Positions 1,906 through 32,032 of a stretch of 32,032 nucleotides of DNA are shown piece after piece. The position numbers and the translations under genes are program-made. The stretch comes from an uncultured Burkholderiales bacterium (GTDB lineage: Bacteria > Pseudomonadota > Gammaproteobacteria > Burkholderiales > Burkholderiaceae_C). Under the pieces are notes generated by a model, which made no database searches, was not told the DNA's origin, and saw only the letters and a list, made by a program, of their open reading frames with translations. The stretch lies in NCBI GenBank assembly GCA_903844825.1, contig CAIMVC010000039.1, positions 1-32,032 of the forward strand, written 5' to 3'. How positions within the stretch are numbered: position 1 is the first letter of the stretch; the number at the start of each line of letters is the position of its first letter.

Positions 1906-3102
1906 ATGAAAGCCAAATTCAACTGGGAAGACCCGTTTTTTCTGTCCGAGCAACTCAGCGAGGACGAGCGCGCCGTGGTCGACGCCGCCCATGACTTTTG
2001 CCAGGAAAAGCTGCAGACCCGGGTGCTGATGGCGGCGCGTCATGAAACCTTTGACCGCGAGATCATGAACGAGTTTGGCGCCATGGGGTTTTTGGGCTCG
2101 ACCATTGAAGGCTACGGCTGCTCGGGTCTGAACTACGTCAGCTACGGCCTGGTGGCGCGTGAAGTCGAGCGGGTGGACAGCGGCTACCGCAGCGCCATGA
2201 GCGTGCAGAGCTCGCTGGTGATGCACCCCATCAATGCCTACGGCGACGAAGCCCAGCGCCAGAAATACCTGCCCAAGCTGGCCACGGGCGAATGGGTCGG
2301 CTGCTTCGGCCTGACCGAACCCAACCACGGCTCCGACCCGGCCAGCATGCTCACCCGCGCCAAGCCGGTCGATGGCGGCTTCATCATGAAGGGCGCCAAG
2401 ATGTGGATCACCAACGCGCCGATTGCCGACGTTTTTGTGGTCTGGGCCAAGCTCGAAGACCCGGACGGCAAGGTCGGCGGCCAGGAAAGCATTCGCGGTT
2501 TCATTCTCGAAAAAGGCATGAAAGGCCTGAGCGCCCCGAAGATCGAGGGCAAGATGAGCTTGCGCGCCTCGATCACCGGTGAGATCGTGATGGACGACGT
2601 GTTTGTGCCCGAAGCCAACCTGCTGCCCAACGTCAGCGGCCTCAAAGGCCCCTTTGGCTGCCTGAATAAAGCCCGCTACGGCATCGCCTGGGGTGCGCTG
2701 GGTGCGGCAGAAGACTGCTGGTTCCGCGCCCGCCAGTACACCATGGACCGCCAGCAGTTTGGCCGTCCGCTGGCACAAAACCAGTTGATCCAGAAAAAAC
2801 TCGCCGACATGCAAACCGAAATCGCCCTGGGCCTGCAGGCCTGCCTGCGCGTGGGTCGCCTGATGGACGAGGACAAGGCCGTGCCCGAAATGATTTCACT
2901 GATCAAGCGCAACTCTTGCGGCAAGTCCCTGGACATCGCCCGCATGGCCCGCGACATGCATGGCGGCAACGGCATTCACGACGAGTACCACGTCATTCGC
3001 CACATGATCAACCTGGAAACGGTCAACACCTACGAAGGCACGCACGACGTGCACGCCCTGATTCTGGGTCGGGCGCAAACCGGCCTGCAGGCGTTTTATT
3101 GA
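1906..3102 (+). CDS. gcdH: Glutaryl-CoA dehydrogenase (acyl-CoA dehydrogenase family)
   Basis: 398 aa, family length. It oxidatively decarboxylates glutaryl-CoA to crotonyl-CoA with FAD, in lysine, tryptophan and glutarate catabolism. Family-specific blocks are [18 protein letters not shown] (about residues 90-107; this Arg binds the glutaryl carboxylate in the family), the FAD-binding [11 protein letters not shown] (about 135-145) and MWITNAP (about 166-172). The C-terminal [17 protein letters not shown] holds catalytic base E377. A weak AGGAC lies about 12 nt upstream of the ATG. It is monocistronic in this window and divergent from the LysR gene. Confidence 0.95.
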
Positions 3103-3116
3103 TCTGAGCTCGGGTC

Positions 3117-3130
3117 GGCTCTGGGGAGCC
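3117..3130 (+). terminator. Small hairpin after gcdH
   Basis: GGCTC-TGGG-GAGCC is a perfect 5-bp stem with a 4-nt loop, 15 bp after the gcdH stop. No T-run follows, so terminator activity is uncertain. The rest of the 249-bp gap to the convergent autotransporter gene shows only one looser stem (AAGTGG/CCACTT, 3225-3249). Confidence 0.25.
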
Positions 3131-3351
3131 CTCACGCTCGGATTGCCGCGCGGCTTTGTCGCTCAATGTTGGCCAAATTCAGGCCGATTATTGTGACGTT
3201 GATGCTGGACGCTCCACCCCGCTTAAGTGGCATGAAAAAACTTCCACTTTGGCGCATTGACGCCGGTATTGGGTGGCAGAGTCCATCCCATCCAGGGCCC
3301 AAAGGGCTGCGGCGGGCCAGGAGCTCCCGTATTTTTGAAGCCGCCATTACG

Positions 3352-6165
3352 CTACAAACCTACCGAGTAGGTCGCCGTTACGGTCAGCCTGGAAGCGTCC
3401 AGATAAGGATCGCGGCTGTAGCTACCGCTGATGCCTAAGCGCTGATTTTTCGCGAGGTCAACATAGGCGCCCAGCGTTGCAGTACGCCGGTTCTTGGCGA
3501 AACCAGCGTCTGAAAAATGAGGACTCAAGCCGGAGATGCCTGTCGCTGCGTGAACGCCCCGGCCACTGCTGACATCGGACTCCGCGCCAGCGCTGGCAAA
3601 AACAGTCGCCGTGGGCGTGACGCGATGGGACAAACCCAGTCCGATCATGGCGGTGCTGACATGGCTCCTGAAGGCGTTGTACGTTAATGGTGCAGTGACC
3701 TCGGCGCTCGCCGTCTCGCTGTAGCCGGCGAGATTTTTTCTTGTGTAGCGTAGCCCGGCATAGGGCCAGACCAGCAAGTCGTCGCGCACGGCCCAACCGT
3801 AGTTGGCAATGACTTGCATGCCCTGGTTGTTCAACTTGGAAGATCCGATGCCGGCCTCGGAACTCCCCACCATGCCACGCGCGATCATGGCCGTCTTTCG
3901 CGCATAAGCCGCTGAGAATTTCACCTCGGCGCCCACACCGTCTGTCCGCTGGCTCCATGCGCCAAACACCCCCAGCAAGGGACTGCTGTTCGAAAGTTTG
4001 ACGACAGCCGAGCCGGGGCCGGACAGGTTCTGGTCGGCATACAGGCCCAGGCGGTAGCTGCCGCCGGGCAAACGATAGGCTGCTATCAGCAAACCACCCT
4101 GCTGGTTGGCGCCTTGGGATTGGGTGTTGCGGGCGCCAGCCGACACACACAGAGCCTGCGCTTGCGGCGTCTTGCAGTCATAGGAAAAACTATGGGTCAG
4201 CACGGAATCTTGCATCGCAAACGCTGCTTGCAAAGACGAGGCCGTGTTTACCAGCGATTGCTGGGTATCGGCGGTGGAAGCACCGGTGACGACCAAATCC
4301 CAGACGCTATCAGCGACGCTCTTGAGGTTAAAGACGAAGCCGTTGTAGTTGCCTGCAGTATTGACAAAGTGGGCTCCGGTGATGCCAGAGAAAACGCCTG
4401 AGTAAGTGCCTTTGCCGACAGTCGAGCCGGTATCAATATTAAAATTCAGGGCCCCTGAAATGGTTCCGAAAGTGACCCGCCCATAGCGGGTGGGAGACTC
4501 AATCATGATGTTGTACTTGGTCGGTAAAATACCCTGGTAGGTGATGGCCGATTTGTTGTTTAGGCTGTTGATTTGGCCGCCGTAGGTCAGGCCCGTCTCG
4601 AAATCCGTATAACTGAAGTTTCTAATGCCAAAGCCATCGGCTCCGGCCAGGATGCGCCCGGTATTGGTGAGGCTGGTGATGGTTCCACCGTTCACGATGC
4701 CGTCGATGTCCCCGCTGATCGTGCCTGCGTTTGACAACTGGACAATGTTGCCCCAGTTCTGCAGGCCGGTGTTGTAGCCGCTGATGATGCCGGTCACGGT
4801 GTTGTTGATTAAATTAACGCTGCCGGGATATCTGACGCCAGCGATAACGTTGCTGCCGTTGACCAGCCCGGCCGCATCACCATAGATGACTCCCGAGTTG
4901 TGTACAGAGCCGATATGCCCGACGTTGGAAACGCCCACACTGCTGGCAGTCATGCTGCCAGAGTTTGCAAGCGTGCCGATGGTCGCACCGGTGTCGTTGT
5001 AGACCGCGTTGAAGCCGAATTGCAAGAATCCGGAATTATCGAAATTTACTATGCTCCCGCTGTTGTAGACGGCTTGATTGCTGCCGGTCATGATGGCGTT
5101 TTCACCCCGATTCACGATGGCGCTGATGCTGCCGGCGTTGTAGATGCTGTTAGTGCCGTTGACTGCTTGAGTGTTGAAGATAAGGTCGATCAGGCCAAGG
5201 TTCGTAATCGCCCCAGACGATGATGAGCCGCCGCTAAGCCGGCCGTCATTGGCGATGGAACTGATGACGCCTCCCGCGCTATTTAAAATCGCAGCGTTGA
5301 GTTCAGCGCCCCCATTAATGGCTCCCGTATTGCTGATTCGTGCGGAAGTGCCAATGCCCACCTGAACGCCAGGCCCATTGATGCCGGCCACCGAACCACT
5401 GCCTGCCGCACCGCCTGCGCCGCCTTCGATCATGCCGGAATTATTCAGGGTGCTCAGGTGTCCCAGGTACACGCCTGCGCCGCCGCTACCGCCTGCGCCG
5501 CCGCCCGCCTCACTGTCACCACCAGCCCCGCCCGCGCCAGCGGCAATGCGTCCGGTATTGTTCAGTGATACGCCCGGATTCACGATGGCGCCATAGCCGC
5601 CCGCGCCACCACCTCCGCCTCCTCCTGCTGATTCAGGGCCACCGCTGGAACTGCCCCCTTGGCCGCCATCACCGCCGAGGATGACTGTCGAATTCGAGCC
5701 CGACGAACTAAAAACCGCGCCGCTTGCACCCCCGCCGCCACCGCCACCGCCTGAATAGCCGCTGACGCTCTGCCCGTCCCCGCCGCGGCCACCCATGCCG
5801 CTGTTGCCACTGGCCAGTCCGCCCGCACCACCGGCGCCACCGGCAGGAGGAAAGTCAGGGTGTGTTGCACCATTGCCGCCGACGCCGCCCACCAGTCCTG
5901 CGCCGCCACCGCCACCACCGTTGCCCAGGCCAATCTCGGTGCTGCCATTGGCGCCAGCGCCGCCTAGTGAGCCCGCAGAACTTGCTCCGCCCGCAGAAAC
6001 ACCGAGACCGCCACCCGCACCGCCAGCAAAGGTTTGGGCTACGCCATGGTCGCCAAAACCGATCAAGCTGGTGACAAAAATTATTTCTAAAAGCCTATAT
6101 TTACTCGAGAAAACGGCAAATAAATAAGTTGAATTTGTTGAATTATTTTGGTTGTTAGTATTCAT
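3352..6165 (-). CDS. Glycine-rich autotransporter (type V secretion) with C-terminal beta-barrel
   Basis: 937 aa. Residues 1-44 look like an extended signal peptide: a polar Asn/Thr start, then a hydrophobic stretch LLEIIFVTSLIGFG, with likely cleavage after GVAQ. Residues about 45-270 are extremely Gly-rich (runs of GGGGGGAG and GGAGGAGG). Residues about 200-550 contain irregular repeats of the kind 'aIyN.G.I..i.NsG.I.G', typical of beta-helical passengers. A linker with a paired-Cys block (YDC...ALCVSAGAR, about 673-687) precedes an autotransporter beta-domain at about 690-937. The chain ends TYSVGL rather than in the usual terminal Phe or Trp. Likely a surface adhesin or self-associating protein; the ligand is unknown. 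The upstream region is AT-rich, unlike its surroundings. Confidence 0.85.
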   Translation of the reverse strand: MNTNNQNNSTNSTYLFAVFSSKYRLLEIIFVTSLIGFGDHGVAQTFAGGAGGGLGVSAGGASSAGSLGGAGANGSTEIGLGNGGGGGGAGLVGGVGGNGATHPDFPPAGGAGGAGGLASGNSGMGGRGGDGQSVSGYSGGGGGGGGASGAVFSSSGSNSTVILGGDGGQGGSSSGGPESAGGGGGGGAGGYGAIVNPGVSLNNTGRIAAGAGGAGGDSEAGGGAGGSGGAGVYLGHLSTLNNSGMIEGGAGGAAGSGSVAGINGPGVQVGIGTSARISNTGAINGGAELNAAILNSAGGVISSIANDGRLSGGSSSSGAITNLGLIDLIFNTQAVNGTNSIYNAGSISAIVNRGENAIMTGSNQAVYNSGSIVNFDNSGFLQFGFNAVYNDTGATIGTLANSGSMTASSVGVSNVGHIGSVHNSGVIYGDAAGLVNGSNVIAGVRYPGSVNLINNTVTGIISGYNTGLQNWGNIVQLSNAGTISGDIDGIVNGGTITSLTNTGRILAGADGFGIRNFSYTDFETGLTYGGQINSLNNKSAITYQGILPTKYNIMIESPTRYGRVTFGTISGALNFNIDTGSTVGKGTYSGVFSGITGAHFVNTAGNYNGFVFNLKSVADSVWDLVVTGASTADTQQSLVNTASSLQAAFAMQDSVLTHSFSYDCKTPQAQALCVSAGARNTQSQGANQQGGLLIAAYRLPGGSYRLGLYADQNLSGPGSAVVKLSNSSPLLGVFGAWSQRTDGVGAEVKFSAAYARKTAMIARGMVGSSEAGIGSSKLNNQGMQVIANYGWAVRDDLLVWPYAGLRYTRKNLAGYSETASAEVTAPLTYNAFRSHVSTAMIGLGLSHRVTPTATVFASAGAESDVSSGRGVHAATGISGLSPHFSDAGFAKNRRTATLGAYVDLAKNQRLGISGSYSRDPYLDASRLTVTATYSVGL

Positions 6166-6522
6166 TGGTTGAGTACTTTTATTTATTGATAGTCCGATAC
6201 TCGAGATAATACGGCAACGAATCTTCCGGCAGTCGGTTTGGCGTGGTTCGCAGTGTGATATTCAAGGCAACCATATATTCGGACTTTGATGTGCTTTTTC
6301 AGTCATGGCGAGCGGCGGAACTGCAACCTCTCCGATTCAGCCCAAAGTAAAACAAAGTCTGCTAAACAAGGAGCGTCCTTGGGGCAATGACAAATCTTCT
6401 GTGTCTGCGAGGCCGCAGGCCGTGGCAGTCCATGGGCTCAAGCCGGACCTTGCACCGCGGGCCGCCTGCGCAAGGCGCACAATCGCGCACTCACCAGCCC
6501 TTTTGAAGCGACCCGCCAGCCC
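6166..6522. other. 357-bp intergenic region between divergent autotransporter and zinc-ribbon genes
   Basis: The part next to the autotransporter (6166-6300) is distinctly AT-rich and must hold its promoter. Read on the minus strand it contains TATTAT and several TA-rich candidate -10 boxes, but I cannot pair one confidently with a -35. The 6305-6522 part is GC-rich and contains an open frame without codon signature or a ribosome site. I see nothing else in it. Confidence 0.4.
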
Positions 6523-24737: not shown

Positions 24738-27700
24738 ATGGAAAACGTCTTTGATTTTCGGGATCAATTGATCTCCGAATACAGCACCTTCTCGCGAAGC
24801 TTTTCCAAAATTGCCGCCTCTGACATTTCTTTGAAGGTAGAGCGGGAATACAACGAAGGCCGCTACTGGCCCGAGCCGCTGATTCAGATCAACCCCAACT
24901 ACCGCAGAAGCGCCACCGTTCAACAGCTGGCTGCCAAGGGCGATCTGCATGCCGCGTGTGGCGAGTTATTCAAAGCCAAAAAGCCTGAGGGCACGCCTGT
25001 CGATTTGTTTTTGTACGCACACCAGATGGAAGCCTTGGCAAAAGCCGGCCAGGATAAAAGCTATGTGGTGACGACCGGCACAGGATCGGGCAAGTCGCTT
25101 TCGTTCTTTATCCCCATCATCGACCGCATCCTCAAAGCCAAACAGGCCGATCCCAAGCCACGTACTCGTGCCATCGTTATCTACCCGATGAACGCACTGG
25201 CCAACAGCCAGCTGGAGGAGCTCGACAAGTTTTTGCACGGCTACGCACCGGGCCAGCAGCCTTTCACAGTCGCCCGATACACCGGGCAGGAGGGCGCCAC
25301 TGAGCGCGAACGCATCAAAAACAATCCCCCAGACATCCTGTTAACCAACTTCATGATGCTGGAGCTGATTCTCACGCGCCACGAAGAAATTGACCGTGGT
25401 GTCGTTGACCACTGCCAAGGACTTGAGTTTTTGGTGTTGGACGAATTGCACACCTACAGGGGTCGTCAAGGTGCTGACGTGGCCATGCTGGTGCGACGCC
25501 TGCGTGAGCGCTTGCAAGCCAACAAACTGGTTTGCATTGGCACATCCGCCACCATGTCCTCCACGGGTACCCAGGCTGACCGCAACAAGACTGTTGCCGA
25601 AGTGGCCTCCAAACTTTTTGGCACCACCATCACCGAGCACGATGTCATTGGTGAAACTCTGGATCGAGTGACCAACCGTGCCAAAAACGTAGATGCCATC
25701 AAGCCCTACCTCAAGTCGTCTTTATCGCAAACCAGCTTCTTGTGGCCCAGTTACGAAGCTTTTCAAGACGACCCTATGGCCATCTGGGTCGAACTGAACC
25801 TGGGCATTGAACTGCCCGCACAAGAAGCGCCGCGCCGCGCCAAGCCCATGACCCTCAAAGACGCTGCAGCGAGGCTGGCCGATGATGCGGGTTGTGACTT
25901 CGATCTGGCCCGTGAAGGCCTGCAACTGTTTTTGGTGGCCGCCCACGAAGTCAAAACCGAACAGGGCCGCCCCCCATTTGCCTTCAAGTTGCACCAATTC
26001 ATCAGCGGACCGGGCAAGGTGCTCGCGACGTTGGAGCCAGCAGGCAAGCGCCACATCACACTGGACGCTCAGCGCTTTGCCCCTGGTCGACAAGACGAAG
26101 GCACGCGCCTTTATCCGGTGCACTTTTGCCGCGATTGCGGGCAGGAATACCACCCCGTCTGGCGATCTGGCAACGCTCAACAGGAATACGGCCCCCGCGA
26201 AATTGACGACATCTCTTCCGACGAAAACGAAGACGCACATTACGGCTTCTTGTGCCCGCAAACCACAGGCCAAAGCTTCAACGGTCAGCTCGAAGAGTTA
26301 CCAGAAACATGGCTCGACCTGAGCAAAGCCGAACCCAAGATCAAAAGCACTTACCGAAAAGCCGTGCCTCAACCCGTCACCTTGGGGCCTGATGGCCTGC
26401 ACGGCCGGGGTGGAGAAGATTTCTGGTTTATCCCCGGCAAGTTCAGGTTTTGCCTGCGCTGCGGCCTGTCCCACGAGGTTCACGGCAAAGACATCAACCG
26501 ACTGGCCAGCTTGTCCGGTGAGGGGCGCTCATCGGCCACCACCATTCTGACTCTGACCGCCATTCGCCAACTGTTTGCCGAGGGCGAACCCCAGACGGAC
26601 CAACCCGACCCCCGAAAAATTTTGGGCTTCACCGACAACCGCCAGGATGCAGCACTGCAAGCGGGACACTTCAACGACTTCATCTTTTTGCTCACGCTGC
26701 GCGCAGCGCTCATTGGTGCCTTGCAAAACAACCAAGGCTTGCTGACTGAAGAGGTGCTGGCCAGTCAAGTGTTCAAAGCATTGGGGTTCGAGCAAGTCGA
26801 CCAAGGCACACTCACTGAATACCTCAAGAACCCCAAGATCATGGGTCTTGCCCGGCAAGACGCCCAAAAGACCTTGCGCTTCATCATTGGCTACCGCCTA
26901 TTGCGCGATCTGCGTCGCGGCTGGCGCTTCAACAACCCCAATCTGGACCAGCTCAACCTGCTGAACATCCATTACCGGGGCATTGCAGAATTTGCGGCCG
27001 AAGAGTCCTTGTTTGCAGGCAACCCCGTGTTGTCCAAACTCTCACCAAAGCACCGAACAGAGCTTTCGGTTTGCCTGTTCGACCACATGCGCCGAGGCCT
27101 TTGCTTGCAAAGCATGTACCTCGACCCCATCGAGCAAGAACGTGCCAAAGCCACCGCCTTCCAATACCTGAACGACCGCTGGGCGTTCGCGTACGACGAA
27201 AGCCTCGAAACATCCAAATACCTCATCTTGGGCAAGCGACCTGAATACCGAGGCAAACCTCGCACAGACTTGGTCCCGGGTGGTCCCCGTACCCGATTGC
27301 TCAAAGACATCAAGTTGTCCCCGTTGTGGAAGAGCAGCCCCGCTGCCGCCGTGGTCAGCGGCTGGAAAGACCCTCAATGGACCGCATTCATTGAAGACCT
27401 GCTCAAGGCGGCATCCCATTACGGTTACGTCCAAAAATTCGACATCGACTCGCAGTTGCTCGGCTGGCGCTTGAACGCCAGCAGCATGGACTGGCTACTG
27501 GTGCACGACGAAGACATTGACACAGACACCCGACACAACGCCTACTTTCGCAACCTCTACTTGGCCGTTGCTCAAACCTTGCAGCAATCCCAGCACGCGC
27601 TTTTCAACTTTGAAGCGCAAGAGCACACCGCGCAAGTTGATGCCGGACGCCGCCAGCTGTTGGAGCAGCGCTTCCGTTACACCACCAAAGACCGCCAAGA

Positions 27701-30068
27701 CTGGGCAGAAAACCCCGCCAACGATGCGCCTTTGCAGCGTTTGCCGGTCATGTTCTGCTCGCCCACCATGGAGCTGGGTGTGGACATTTCGGCGCTCAAC
27801 GCCGTGTATTTGCGCAACGTGCCGCCCACCCCGGCCAACTACGCGCAGCGCAGCGGGCGCGCGGGCCGCTCCGGGATGCAGGCGCTGGTCATCACCTATT
27901 GCGCAGCCCTCAGCCCGCACGACCAATGGTTCTTTCACCACGCCACCGATATGGTGCATGGCATCGTCAAACCGCCCACACTGGATTTGGCCAACCGCGA
28001 CCTGGTTGAAAGCCACCTCCACGCCATCTGGCTCTCAGCAGCACAAGTTCAGCTCGACACCAGCATTGCGCCCATGCTGGAGCTGGACAAAGAAAAGCAA
28101 CCCCTCAAAGACGCTTTGTGGCAAAAAATCAATTCGACCGAAGTCAACCAACGGGCCGCCCAAAGCGCCCAGGCCTTCATGAATCAGGTGGTGACCGAAG
28201 TCCAAAACAGCCCTTGGTATTCAGCCGAGCATGCGCAGCAAACCATCAACCGTGCACCTGAAGATTTTTCAAAGTCATTTGAGAGATGGCGCACCCTGGT
28301 CGAGGCCACGCGCAAGCAAATGGACATGGCCAACGCCATCACCCAAAGCTACACCACCAGCAACGCCGAAAAACTTAACTCCCAGCGCCGCTACGGCGAT
28401 GCTGCCAAGCAATACGCCTTGCTGCTCAAAACTGGCAACGCCCAAAACAACGACTTCTACACCTACCGTTACCTGGCCAGCCAAGGCTTTTTGCCGGGCT
28501 ACAACTTCCCGCGTTTGCCTCTCATGGCCTGGATTCCCGCCAAAGGTGGGGCAGGGGGCAAAGACGACGATGGCAGCATGGTCAGCCGTCCGCGCTTTCT
28601 GGCCCTGTCAGAGTTCGGCCCCCGCAGCCTGATCTACCACCAAGGCCGCATGTACCGCGTTGTGCGAGCCAAGCTCAACGTCGGCAACACAGACCACATC
28701 TCCGGTAGCAGCTCTCTGGCCACCGTCACCAGCCGCGTGTGCAGTGCTTGTGGCTATGCCCACATGAGCCAGCTGGGAGGCGGTGACCCCATCGTGGACC
28801 GTTGCGAGAATTGCGACGCCCTCCTGACCGACAACGACTGGGTCAAAAACCTCTACCGCATCGAAACAGTCGAGACCATGGCCGTCGAGCGCATCTCCAT
28901 CAACGACGAAGACCGTCAGCGCCAGGGCTTTGAGCTTCAAACCACTTATCGTTTTTTGCCAGGCCCCAACGGTCAAATCTCCAAAGTCAAAACCATCGTC
29001 CAGCCGAGCGCAGATGCCAACGAGGCGCCACTGGCCGAACTCACCTACGCCCCCGCCGCGCTCATCTGGCGGATTAACCGGGGCTGGCGTCGCCGCAAGG
29101 ACAAAAACCAGCTGGGCTTTTACATCAACCCCGTCACGGGCCAGTGGAGCAAAAAAGACGAACCTGGCGCGACTGATGCGGGTGAACCCGAGGACGGCTT
29201 GTTGGACAAGGTGCCCAATCAGCAAATCGTTCCTTTTGTCGAGGACTATCGCAACATACTGATTCTTCAGCCGTCCAAGCAAACGCTGGACCTGGAAACC
29301 ATGGCCACCTTGCAAGCTGCCCTCAAGCGCGGCATTGAGATGACCTACCAGATCGAAGAATCCGAGCTGGTGGCTGAAGCCTTGCCCACCCAAGACAACC
29401 GCCAAGCCATCATGTTCTACGAGGCGGCCGAGGGTGGTGCTGGCGTACTCACACGCCTGGCCAGCGAGCCCCAAGCCCTGGCCCAAGTGGCCGCAACGGC
29501 TCTCAAGCTGTTGCACCACAACGCACCCACAGGCCCGTGGAAGTTTGATGAACTGCCTGATTTGGAGCAGCTCGACAAAAACGGCCATCACATTTGCGAA
29601 GCCGGTTGTTACCAGTGCCTGTTGTCCTACTTCAACCAGCCTGACCACGACAACATCAACCGCCGAAACGAAGACGCCCTCAAGCTGTTGGTGGCCATGG
29701 CCAACGCCCAGGTGCTTGCTGCCCCGGTGGTTCAAGTGCCCATGCCGTCAACTTTGGCCCCCACTGACGACCCCAGGGCATCCACCATTTCAGCTGACCT
29801 CACAGACACCTGGCTACAAGCACTTCAGCAAGGAGGTTATCAACTGCCCGACAAAGTGCGTGTGCCCGTGGCCGATGGTTTGGCCGTAGCAGCCGGTTTC
29901 TACAAGCATGCCCGATTGACGGTCTTGCTGGATGCCGTCTCTGATGAGGTGATTGAACGTCTGCAAGACAAGGGCATCACCGCGCTGCTCATGTCTGATC
30001 CCACAAAATGGCCCGCTCAATTTGCCGCATTTGCCCATGTCTTTGGGCCTGGTTTGACGGCTCAGTGA
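24738..30068 (+). CDS. Giant DEAD/DEAH-box helicase with C-terminal DUF1998 (DruE-like / DrmA-DrmB-like), putative anti-phage defence
   Basis: 1776 aa. Helicase domain 1: Walker A TGTGSGKS (113-120), motif Ia YPMNALANSQ (149-158), the DNA-contacting PDILLTNFMMLELIL (198-212), Walker B variant DELH (235-238) and motif III GTSATM (268-273). Domain 2: PTMELGVDIS (1009-1018) and motif VI QRSGRAGR (1037-1044). Between them is an unusually long insert with two CxxC pairs (C464/C467, C572/C575). A further four-Cys ribbon lies at C1335, C1338, C1356, C1359. The DUF1998 core is at about 1550-1645: YEAAEGGAGV (1561-1570) and C1620, C1624, C1627 in CEAGCYQCLLSY, with H1637. Residues 1720-1770 resemble a degraded nuclease-like tail. 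Size and architecture recall Druantia DruE; the DUF1998 part also recalls DISARM DrmB. It is probably an ATP-driven DNA translocase. The nuclease gene starts 16 bp after it. Confidence 0.88.
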   Translation: MENVFDFRDQLISEYSTFSRSFSKIAASDISLKVEREYNEGRYWPEPLIQINPNYRRSATVQQLAAKGDLHAACGELFKAKKPEGTPVDLFLYAHQMEALAKAGQDKSYVVTTGTGSGKSLSFFIPIIDRILKAKQADPKPRTRAIVIYPMNALANSQLEELDKFLHGYAPGQQPFTVARYTGQEGATERERIKNNPPDILLTNFMMLELILTRHEEIDRGVVDHCQGLEFLVLDELHTYRGRQGADVAMLVRRLRERLQANKLVCIGTSATMSSTGTQADRNKTVAEVASKLFGTTITEHDVIGETLDRVTNRAKNVDAIKPYLKSSLSQTSFLWPSYEAFQDDPMAIWVELNLGIELPAQEAPRRAKPMTLKDAAARLADDAGCDFDLAREGLQLFLVAAHEVKTEQGRPPFAFKLHQFISGPGKVLATLEPAGKRHITLDAQRFAPGRQDEGTRLYPVHFCRDCGQEYHPVWRSGNAQQEYGPREIDDISSDENEDAHYGFLCPQTTGQSFNGQLEELPETWLDLSKAEPKIKSTYRKAVPQPVTLGPDGLHGRGGEDFWFIPGKFRFCLRCGLSHEVHGKDINRLASLSGEGRSSATTILTLTAIRQLFAEGEPQTDQPDPRKILGFTDNRQDAALQAGHFNDFIFLLTLRAALIGALQNNQGLLTEEVLASQVFKALGFEQVDQGTLTEYLKNPKIMGLARQDAQKTLRFIIGYRLLRDLRRGWRFNNPNLDQLNLLNIHYRGIAEFAAEESLFAGNPVLSKLSPKHRTELSVCLFDHMRRGLCLQSMYLDPIEQERAKATAFQYLNDRWAFAYDESLETSKYLILGKRPEYRGKPRTDLVPGGPRTRLLKDIKLSPLWKSSPAAAVVSGWKDPQWTAFIEDLLKAASHYGYVQKFDIDSQLLGWRLNASSMDWLLVHDEDIDTDTRHNAYFRNLYLAVAQTLQQSQHALFNFEAQEHTAQVDAGRRQLLEQRFRYTTKDRQDWAENPANDAPLQRLPVMFCSPTMELGVDISALNAVYLRNVPPTPANYAQRSGRAGRSGMQALVITYCAALSPHDQWFFHHATDMVHGIVKPPTLDLANRDLVESHLHAIWLSAAQVQLDTSIAPMLELDKEKQPLKDALWQKINSTEVNQRAAQSAQAFMNQVVTEVQNSPWYSAEHAQQTINRAPEDFSKSFERWRTLVEATRKQMDMANAITQSYTTSNAEKLNSQRRYGDAAKQYALLLKTGNAQNNDFYTYRYLASQGFLPGYNFPRLPLMAWIPAKGGAGGKDDDGSMVSRPRFLALSEFGPRSLIYHQGRMYRVVRAKLNVGNTDHISGSSSLATVTSRVCSACGYAHMSQLGGGDPIVDRCENCDALLTDNDWVKNLYRIETVETMAVERISINDEDRQRQGFELQTTYRFLPGPNGQISKVKTIVQPSADANEAPLAELTYAPAALIWRINRGWRRRKDKNQLGFYINPVTGQWSKKDEPGATDAGEPEDGLLDKVPNQQIVPFVEDYRNILILQPSKQTLDLETMATLQAALKRGIEMTYQIEESELVAEALPTQDNRQAIMFYEAAEGGAGVLTRLASEPQALAQVAATALKLLHHNAPTGPWKFDELPDLEQLDKNGHHICEAGCYQCLLSYFNQPDHDNINRRNEDALKLLVAMANAQVLAAPVVQVPMPSTLAPTDDPRASTISADLTDTWLQALQQGGYQLPDKVRVPVADGLAVAAGFYKHARLTVLLDAVSDEVIERLQDKGITALLMSDPTKWPAQFAAFAHVFGPGLTAQ

Positions 30069-30084
30069 ACCCGAGTAACACGCC

Positions 30085-31158
30085 ATGCCCACAAACACCC
30101 CTCTCGCAACGGCTGATCTGCACAATTTGGTCCACGACCTCAGTCGGGTCCACGTCGCCTTGCAGGGGCGTGCCGCACGTTCGGTTGACCTGGCCCTGGT
30201 CGTGCGCAACTGGTTGTTCGGCTGGTCACTGGTTCATCACCAAAAAGCGGTCAAAGACCGTGCCAGCACCTACGGCAAAGCGGTCTTAGAGCAGGTGTCA
30301 CTGCAAATGTCTCAACAAGGTATCAAAGGGGTTTCGCCCACCAGCCTTCGCCAATACCGCAACTTTTACCTGGCCTTTGAAAAGATTCAGCAGACGCTGT
30401 CTGCTGAATCTCCACCCGGCGAACAAATTGACACCCTCTGGCGACAGTTTTCACTGGGTTGGTCGCATTACGTCGTGCTGCTGACCATCGACGATCCCGA
30501 TGCACGGGCTTTTTATGAACTTGAAGCCCGCCAAAACAGCTGGGGCGTCCGCGAGCTCAAGCGGCAGTTGGCTGCATCGCTGTTCGAGCGACTGGCGCTG
30601 GGGCGCAACAAGGCGGACATCAAGCAACTTGGGAAAGACGGACAAATCATCAGCCAGCCCAAAGACATTATCAAAAACCCCTACGTTCTGGAGTTTTTGG
30701 ACCTTCCAGAGCCGCACAGCTACTCCGAGCATGAACTCGAAACGGCCATCATCAACCGCATTGAAACCTTTCTGCTGGAACTGGGCAAAGGCTTCTTGTT
30801 CGAGGCCCGTCAAAAGCGCTTTACTTTTGACGACGATCATTTCTATGTCGACCTCGTGTTCTACAACCGCTTGCTCAAATGCTACGTCCTGATCGACCTC
30901 AAACGCGACAAGCTGACACACCAAGACCTCGGTCAGATGCAGATGTACGTCAACTACTTTGACCGCCATGTCAAAACACCTGACGAATCGCCCACCATCG
31001 GCATCGTGCTGTGTCACCGCAAAAATGACGCATTGGTTGAACTGACCCTGCCTGACAACGCCAACATCTACGCCGCCAAATACCAGCTCTACTTGCCATC
31101 CAAAGACGAGTTACGGGCGCAAATCCAGGCTTCCCTGGATCTACAAGACAACTCATGA
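30085..31158 (+). CDS. DUF1016/YhcG-type PD-(D/E)XK nuclease domain protein
   Basis: 357 aa. An N-terminal helical DUF1016_N region spans about 12-175 (RNWLFGWSLVHHQ; SLRQYRNFYLAFEKIQ; SWGVRELKRQL). The C-terminal PD-(D/E)XK fold spans about 195-345: E240 (FLFEARQ), D256 (FYVDLVFYN), then I-D271-L-K273 and Q284 (LGQMQMYVNYFD). The second acidic residue is Asp (DLK), where most YhcG relatives have Glu (ELK); both fit the PD-(D/E)XK rule, so cleavage remains plausible. YhcG-like nucleases occur widely in or beside restriction and other defence loci. It starts 16 bp after the helicase and overlaps the next gene by ATGA, so the three genes form one transcriptional unit. Confidence 0.88.
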   Translation: MPTNTPLATADLHNLVHDLSRVHVALQGRAARSVDLALVVRNWLFGWSLVHHQKAVKDRASTYGKAVLEQVSLQMSQQGIKGVSPTSLRQYRNFYLAFEKIQQTLSAESPPGEQIDTLWRQFSLGWSHYVVLLTIDDPDARAFYELEARQNSWGVRELKRQLAASLFERLALGRNKADIKQLGKDGQIISQPKDIIKNPYVLEFLDLPEPHSYSEHELETAIINRIETFLLELGKGFLFEARQKRFTFDDDHFYVDLVFYNRLLKCYVLIDLKRDKLTHQDLGQMQMYVNYFDRHVKTPDESPTIGIVLCHRKNDALVELTLPDNANIYAAKYQLYLPSKDELRAQIQASLDLQDNS

Positions 31159-32032
31159 CCCTCGCTACGCAAACCGCCGCACATTTCCAACCCGGCAACC
31201 TCGTTCGCGCACGTGGGCGCGAATGGGTTGTTCAGGCCGACTCATCTGTTGAAGAAGGCGGCGGCCTCTTGCGTTTGCGCCCCTTGGGCGGTTCTGACGA
31301 AGACACCATTGCCCTGATTCCCGAGCTGGAATTCACGCCCGTGGTGCCCGCCACATTTCCCTGGCCAGATGCCAACCAACCCGGTAACCATGCAGCCGCT
31401 TTGCTCATGCGAGACGCCCTGCGCCTCAAGCTTCGGGCCGGTGGTGGCCCGTTTCGCTCGTTTGGCAATATCGCGGTGGAGCCTCGTGCCTATCAGCTGG
31501 TGCCATTGCTCATGGCCTTGCGCCTGACCACCGTGCGCCTGCTGATTGCCGACGACGTGGGTATCGGTAAAACCATTGAAGCGTGCCTGATCGTGCGCGA
31601 GCTGATGGACCGTGGCGAAATCACCCGCTTTGCGGTGTTGTGCCCACCTCACTTGGTCGAGCAGTGGCAAGGCGAATTGCTCAGCCGTTTCAACCTGCAG
31701 GCCGTGGCACTCACCTCAGCCAGTGCCAGCCGTATAGAGCGTGAAATTCCCCACGGTGTCAGTTTGTTTGACCACCACCCCATCGTGGTCGTCAGCCTGG
31801 ACTACATCAAAAGCGAACGTCACCGCGAGCACTTCTTGAGCATTGCCCCCGAATGCATCATCGTGGACGAAGCCCACACCTGTGCCAGCAGCGGCGCTGG
31901 CAAGCAACTGCGCTTTGAGCTCTTGCAGCGCTTGGCCAAAGACGAAGCGCGCCATCTTCTCTTGCTCACCGCAACCCCGCACTCGGGTGACGAAACCGCG
32001 TTCTACAACCTGCTGTCTTTGCTCAACCCCGA
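31155..32032 (+). CDS. SNF2-family helicase, DrmD-like (5' part; runs off the window)
   Basis: First 292 codons only; the frame is open at the right edge. The start ATG overlaps the nuclease stop (ATGA). The N-terminus (GNLVRARGREWVV, 14-26; LLRLRPLGGSDED, 38-50) is the pattern I associate with DISARM DrmD. SNF2 motifs follow: VEPRAYQLVPLLMAL (108-122), Walker A DDVGIGKT (133-140), CPPHLVEQW (163-171), Walker B DEAH (238-241) and motif III LLTATPHSGDE (270-280). The C-terminal helicase domain must lie beyond the window. In class 1 DISARM a DrmD gene is followed by the adenine methylase DrmMI, so the next gene is the critical one. Confidence 0.88.
   Translation, partial: MTLATQTAAHFQPGNLVRARGREWVVQADSSVEEGGGLLRLRPLGGSDEDTIALIPELEFTPVVPATFPWPDANQPGNHAAALLMRDALRLKLRAGGGPFRSFGNIAVEPRAYQLVPLLMALRLTTVRLLIADDVGIGKTIEACLIVRELMDRGEITRFAVLCPPHLVEQWQGELLSRFNLQAVALTSASASRIEREIPHGVSLFDHHPIVVVSLDYIKSERHREHFLSIAPECIIVDEAHTCASSGAGKQLRFELLQRLAKDEARHLLLLTATPHSGDETAFYNLLSLLNP

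Follow-up and report, generated by a model that had tools for sequence, protein, structure and literature searches.

The window analyzed here is the whole of contig CAIMVC010000039.1 (32,032 bases) from an uncultured Burkholderiales bacterium, and it carries a cluster of three plus-strand genes at its right-hand end. Very probably the cluster is the 5' portion of an ARMADA Type I operon whose first two genes are separated by an inserted gene for the nuclease YhcG. The core of the operon is already known, and the inserted yhcG is an unusual variation of it. ARMADA was described in a preprint of September 2025 (Bell et al., PMC12458937), the main text of which gives the general Type I order as YprA helicase, BrxHII/RapA-like helicase and PglX-like methyltransferase. 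The first gene of the window cluster (24738..30068) encodes a YprA-family DEAD-box helicase of 1776 amino acids (aa) with a DUF1998 module. It is followed by yhcG (30085..31158), encoding a YhcG/DUF1016 PD-(D/E)xK nuclease of 357 aa, and by a gene for a BrxHII/RapA-like, DrmD-related SNF2 helicase (31155..32032). The contig ends at 32,032, 878 bases into the SNF2 gene, leaving its 3' end open and its first 292 aa readable (the open reading frame, ORF, is called to 32030). Both complete genes begin with an ATG. The gap between the helicase gene and yhcG is 16 bases, and yhcG and the SNF2 gene share an ATGA overlap. A first-pass annotation of the window had reported the same three plus-strand genes, the same gap and the same overlap, in agreement with the ORF list and the sequence.

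Relatives of the giant helicase were collected at several taxonomic levels. At E ≤ 1e-20 they were found in 34 of 299 genomes from the same family, the window's own included, and 17 of the others were full length or nearly so. At E ≤ 1e-200 they were found in 16 of 399 genomes from the order, 9 of 369 from the class and 13 of 398 from the phylum, counting the window's genome each time. From a contig database the best 80 of 586 loci were used, and the sample therefore leans toward close relatives. The helicase also matched 56 plasmid records at E ≤ 1e-100, and eight relatives were found on viral contigs (best segment 44% in one, 26-38% in the other seven). The final census comprised 143 loci. 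Ten with a helicase ORF of ≤1,500 aa were left out (the ORF was broken, split or truncated at the end of a contig, as in L053 and L202). Clustering of the remaining 133 at 98% identity gave 124 distinct helicases.

The order YprA-SNF2 was highly conserved in this set. An SNF2 gene was located downstream on the same strand in 116 of the 124 distinct loci (115 of 123 without the window), and 108 loci, all of them other than the window, had both the SNF2 gene and a PglX/DrmMI-like methyltransferase gene. The third gene of L036, for example, matched DrmMI (6.3e-70) and the Eco57I methylase family (5e-16). Eight loci had the SNF2 gene without the methyltransferase, and in seven of these, the window included, less than 2.1 kb was left past the helicase. 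YhcG, on the other hand, was found between the helicases in one of the 124 loci, which is the window itself. A family profile built from 17 YhcG proteins gave no match in any other of the 143 loci, anywhere in the available stretch, nor did YhcG match in any of the nine plasmid records examined out of the 56. The conserved neighborhood that the first-pass annotation had proposed to look for was found for the two helicases, while co-occurrence with YhcG was not (0 of 123 other loci).

A tree of 49 rows, made by a quick method, placed the window within this group. Its ARMADA I rows are 41 of the 111 helicases collected at that stage, labelled by gene order and similarity independently of the preprint's own sequences. 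A branch with a value of 100 in the Shimodaira-Hasegawa-like approximate likelihood ratio test separates the window and the 40 other ARMADA I rows from the rest of the tree, and the rows nearest to the window are L035, L036 and L037. Four rows (L265, L266, L267, and L269) were marked as Druantia III before their neighbor genes were known; the 41-row group does not depend on these labels. Since long branches meet outside this group, the outer branching order was left uninterpreted. The helicase was 44-73% identical to 17 same-family homologues in a single alignment, and the SNF2 gene was 79-86% identical to its counterpart in the six ARMADA I loci of the same family that are closest to the window.

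The suggestion that the cluster represents an undescribed type did not survive this comparison. The YprA and SNF2 core, with or without the methyltransferase, recurs widely, and the tree places the window inside the group; the core is therefore ARMADA Type I. On gene order, tree and census an undescribed hybrid defence type is likewise rejected. It is true that the models matched by the three proteins belong to different systems, known or candidate, as would be expected if giant helicase, YhcG and DrmD formed a new three-gene defence type. However, both helicases are ARMADA I helicases and no second locus with such an order was found among the 124, and we regard a new three-gene type as extremely improbable.

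The database matches of the individual proteins agree with the assigned families. In the helicase, Pfam identified a DEAD domain (RecA1; residues 94-275, 25017..25562; 2.4e-26), a Helicase_C region (RecA2; residues 985-1046, 27690..27875; 6e-8) and an MZB, or MrfA Zn-binding, domain (residues 1525-1628, 29310..29621; 3.1e-9). We take the zinc-binding MZB to be the DUF1998 module, and of the fused OB-CON-DUF1998 module that characterizes ARMADA I this part is present. In an alignment with same-family homologues the Walker A motif through K119-S120 and the DELH motif at residues 235-238 were invariant. YhcG contains a DUF1016 N-terminal domain (DUF1016_N; residues 26-169, 30160..30591; 1.5e-27) and a YhcG_C nuclease domain (residues 194-347, 30664..31125; 1.6e-55), and matched the PADLOC candidate PDC-S02 over its full length (2.5e-126). 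The SNF2 gene matched SNF2-rel_dom (1.6e-17) in Pfam, and in PADLOC matched best to the DpdE model PDLC02853 (2e-94), followed by DrmD (8.3e-48) and BrxHI/BrxHII (1.4e-32). NCBIfam matched both helicases below cut-off only and YhcG not at all; its DrmD model gave 4.2e-53 for the SNF2 gene, below the curated cut-off (180.9 vs. 610 bits, the gene being incomplete). Pfam and PADLOC thereby agree with the families named earlier for the three genes (DEAD/DUF1998 helicase, DUF1016/YhcG nuclease and, for the incomplete gene, SNF2 helicase), and "DrmD-like" was a fair name for the last of these.

Druantia consists of DruE with type-specific partners. The DruE models were the best PADLOC matches of the window helicase (DruE1, 6.4e-95). 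However, its neighbors are YhcG, SNF2 and a molybdopterin dehydrogenase, as far as the contig end allows a view, and it falls outside the Druantia-like tree rows. A best match to DruE was also found for helicases in other settings. The helicase of L270 lies in the Type II order SNF2, methyltransferase, YprA, and that of L269 has a methyltransferase upstream and a UvrD/GajB-like gene downstream, which fits ARMADA II better; both had DruE3 as best PADLOC model.

DISARM Class 1 (DrmD, DrmMI, DrmA, and DrmB) resembles the window in that the SNF2 gene is related to DrmD and the methyltransferase of the relatives is related to DrmMI. It differs in having helicase and DUF1998 module as separate genes, whereas they form one gene in the window, and the DrmA matches of the window helicase were weak (best 4.1e-15). 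DrmC was not seen in the window, which ends inside the SNF2 gene. According to the main text of the preprint, the ARMADA helicase typically carries as a fusion the module that DISARM encodes in a separate gene, and the BrxHII/RapA-like gene is common to ARMADA and DISARM Class I (PMC12458937). The first-pass annotation, which saw a DISARM- and Druantia-like hybrid with the roles of DrmA and DrmB combined in one giant helicase, is supported on this point by the fused module. ARMADA Type II shares the helicase and methyltransferase families with the window but has the order BrxHII, PglX, YprA, followed by a GajB-like helicase that bears a RelE-like domain, while YprA precedes SNF2 in the window. 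With Type I the window shares the DUF1998-containing YprA gene in first place, the BrxHII/RapA-like gene after it, a tight same-strand operon and the sequence group. It differs from Type I by the yhcG gene between the helicases, by the contig ending before the position of the methyltransferase and by loss of the C-terminal motif of the helicase.

Several points weigh against the assignment to ARMADA Type I with an inserted yhcG. The assembly lacks the methyltransferase gene and the greater part of the SNF2 gene: a search of the source genome (464 contigs, 88.92% complete) outside the window gave neither the remainder of the SNF2 gene nor a close match to a PglX-like gene. The tree is of a quick kind, with outgroup branches of 3-6 changes per column and a program warning of long-row joins. 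The region of the helicase expected to be BrxA-like and the C-terminal domain had no significant fold match in the PDB (Foldseek, E ≤ 0.001). The ARMADA system for which the preprint's main text presents experimental data is Type II and not Type I (PMC12458937). Finally, YhcG occupies its slot in a single locus, and therefore no conservation argues for a joint function.

The source genome is fragmented and has an estimated contamination of 3.55%, so that the contig could have joined the YhcG of a restriction-modification locus to an ARMADA operon by misassembly. However, the operon junctions are ordinary on both sides of yhcG, and the same two relatives, L035 and L036, gave the best matches for both of the genes flanking it, YprA and SNF2. 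An assembly artefact is consequently very unlikely.

In the preprint's main text the C-terminal domain of the ARMADA I helicase is a predicted active Vsr-type nuclease (PMC12458937). In the window, residues 1640-1776 (29655..30065) align with the DUF559/Vsr-like PD-(D/E)xK domains found in further ARMADA I helicases. The DFxY and [I/V]DGPHH motifs are missing, however, and the domain is predicted to be inactive. Structure prediction gave an alpha-beta-beta-beta-alpha-beta layout with a predicted local distance difference test score (pLDDT) of 83.7. The DUF559 model matched 22 of 37 aligned C-terminal domains, that of the window not among them. Foldseek returned no match for the domain at E ≤ 0.001; among the weak matches were some nucleases (PvuRts1I, VRR_NUC and a cap-snatching endonuclease), none significant. 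A search of PDB sequences gave a single weak match, 3hrl (E 0.083), and none with YhcG as query. Residues 283-470, where a BrxA-like insertion is expected after RecA1, were predicted to be largely helical (pLDDT 88.7) and had no Foldseek match at the same threshold.

Loss of the nuclease motif was common among the relatives. Scored by a pattern of our own making, the motif set was kept in 38 of 111 helicases in an earlier sample and in 44 of 124 distinct loci in the final census; in the other 80 (the window and 79 of the 123 others) it was absent, partial or cut off, all of which count as "no motif". Two changes suffice to explain the loss on 40 scored tree tips, and 20 of the 21 motif-less rows fall in one group. 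Therefore, the loss is old and probably predates the arrival of YhcG.

This bears on the idea, raised in the first-pass annotation, that YhcG replaces the usual nuclease. In this reading, the C-terminal PD-(D/E)xK domain of YprA has become inactive in the lineage of the window and YhcG makes the cut instead. The window indeed lacks the motif, which 44 of the 124 loci have. However, the loss is shared with relatives that do without YhcG. Nor did a second candidate give support. An early comparison of loci with at least 2,500 bases beyond the methyltransferase suggested that a stand-alone HNH gene had been swapped in for the lost nuclease, since a downstream HNH gene was found in 27 of 42 motif-less vs. 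1 of 15 motif-bearing loci (one partial locus had none). With longer flanks (20 loci), HNH was found in 8 of 10 motif-less and 8 of 10 motif-bearing loci, with L039 scored as a miss although a cut 81-aa match had been flagged there earlier. The first contrast was an artefact of flank length and the HNH swap was therefore dropped. Taken with the age of the loss, we consider replacement by YhcG unlikely.

The yhcG gene itself appears intact. D256, D271 and K273 were invariant in 17 aligned sequences (that of the window and 16 others), and both DUF1016_N and a PD-(D/E)xK YhcG_C domain with its catalytic residues are present. In this the protein resembles the YhcG/DUF1016 system PDC-S02, and it differs in lying inside an ARMADA operon. 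The best relatives in the 399 genomes of the same order were 57% identical over 342 residues and 63% identical over 248 residues. Ten neighbor proteins were scanned at 7 of 16 YhcG loci. At six of the seven, the neighbors included an N6 methylase, HsdM, HsdS or HsdR, while L216 had an integrase. Because the related genes lie among such genes, the window yhcG seems to come from a restriction-modification-associated family. YhcG was predicted to be a PD-(D/E)xK nuclease in 2005, in a study whose main text mentions an association with a type I restriction-modification cluster for Methanosarcina acetivorans only (PMC1189080). The words DUF1016 and YhcG are absent from the main text of the ARMADA preprint (PMC12458937), and no paper on YhcG in ARMADA was found among the main texts of the open-licence literature.

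YhcG could be a passenger. It would then be a nuclease gene of a defence-associated kind that came to lie inside the operon but is unconnected with ARMADA, its product working on its own or having no activity. Its presence in one of 124 loci fits this, as does the finding that unrelated same-strand genes fill the YprA-SNF2 slot in other loci (L045, L076, L078, L072, L075, and L242) and that the slot between the SNF2 and methyltransferase genes is also occupied in some loci (L042, L043, L222, and L201). Against it are the tight junctions on both sides, comparable to the 6-18 bases that alone separate YprA and SNF2 in L035, L036, L037, L039 and L040, the intact active site, and the fact that related YhcG genes likewise adjoin methyltransferases. 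A passenger is a real possibility, somewhat short of an even chance, and we put a joint role of YhcG with the ARMADA operon at about even. The ATGA overlap makes it probable that yhcG and the SNF2 gene are co-transcribed.

By analogy with Type II and with the protein families, a PglX-like methyltransferase expected past the contig end would mark host DNA, and the SNF2 translocase and YprA helicase would act on unmarked phage DNA by translocation and unwinding. Phage replication would be blocked without killing the host cell. In the joint role, YhcG would most likely contribute a PD-(D/E)xK cut in the DNA on which the helicases act. The main text of the preprint reports that the E. coli ARMADA Type II system protects against 13 of 80 phages with no signs of cell death, i.e., in a non-abortive manner, and that motif mutations in the helicase or methyltransferase abolish or reduce protection (PMC12458937). 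A passage in a 2026 PLoS Pathogens article counts ARMADA among the systems restricting by unknown mechanisms (PMC12904381).

A wider, speculative proposal, which we consider rather doubtful, is that ARMADA I serves as a frame into which different effectors can be fitted. A large lineage that includes the window would have lost its helicase nuclease early, and single operons would later have acquired stand-alone effectors in two slots (YhcG, an IrrE/M78-like protein, PDC-S27, a Schlafen-type protein and VapC), the restriction-type nuclease of the window having been wired in as cutter. The window operon would show that ARMADA can accommodate an additional nuclease gene in close contact with the core genes on either side, and that the helicase's own nuclease is dispensable in a large Type I branch. 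What cuts or blocks phage DNA in ARMADA then becomes testable.

Other inserts were observed in both slots. A protein of about 290 aa recurs between YprA and SNF2 in L045 (9792-10661), L053, L076 and L078; it had a marginal M78/IrrE match in L045, and in L045 and L053 it matched the C-terminal part of RT_III-A. The same slot contains a 455-aa protein in L072, a 226-aa protein in L075 and a JukB-like protein in L242. The second slot contains a PDC-S27 ATPase in L042 and L043, a Schlafen-type protein in L222 (the same locus as L061) and a Phd/VapC pair in L201. The latter is an ARMADA I locus on the megaplasmid of Acidithiobacillus caldus SM-1, with an IS21 element near the SNF2 start and the Phd/VapC pair before the methyltransferase. 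Small minus-strand ORFs counted as inserts in L059, L060, L105, L225 and L291 are probably spurious.

Downstream of the ARMADA I operon, a 660-aa LmuB/SMC-like ATPase was found in 12 of the 20 long-flank loci, and in 16 of the 20 a gene for an HNH_2 endonuclease (about 230-310 aa) was located further 3' (e.g., L038:16733-19514, L036, and L240). Neither is named with ARMADA in the main text of the preprint (PMC12458937). Half-size YprA-like genes (818 and 850 aa) were found in L273 and L274 beside SNF2 genes that reached 850 and 827 bits against the ARMADA I profile, L273 also having a methyltransferase. These are perhaps split-helicase relatives of ARMADA.

Elsewhere in the source genome, contig C166 (L004, 3-5332) carries an SNF2 gene followed by a cut methyltransferase. 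Contig C90 (L269) carries a cut methyltransferase, a 351-aa gene, a YprA-family helicase of 2136 aa and the UvrD/GajB-like gene. Together these two contig ends may represent a single ARMADA Type II locus of the genome.

In the window, ten ORFs were scanned 5' of the cluster; seven were metabolic, one was an AsnC-type regulator and two had no match. The molybdopterin dehydrogenase gene directly adjoins the giant helicase upstream. The guanine-cytosine content was 57-58.5% in the cluster vs. 62.6-67.1% across the preceding 12 kb. Since positions 3001-6500 also had 58%, this drop is only a hint that the cluster was gained horizontally.

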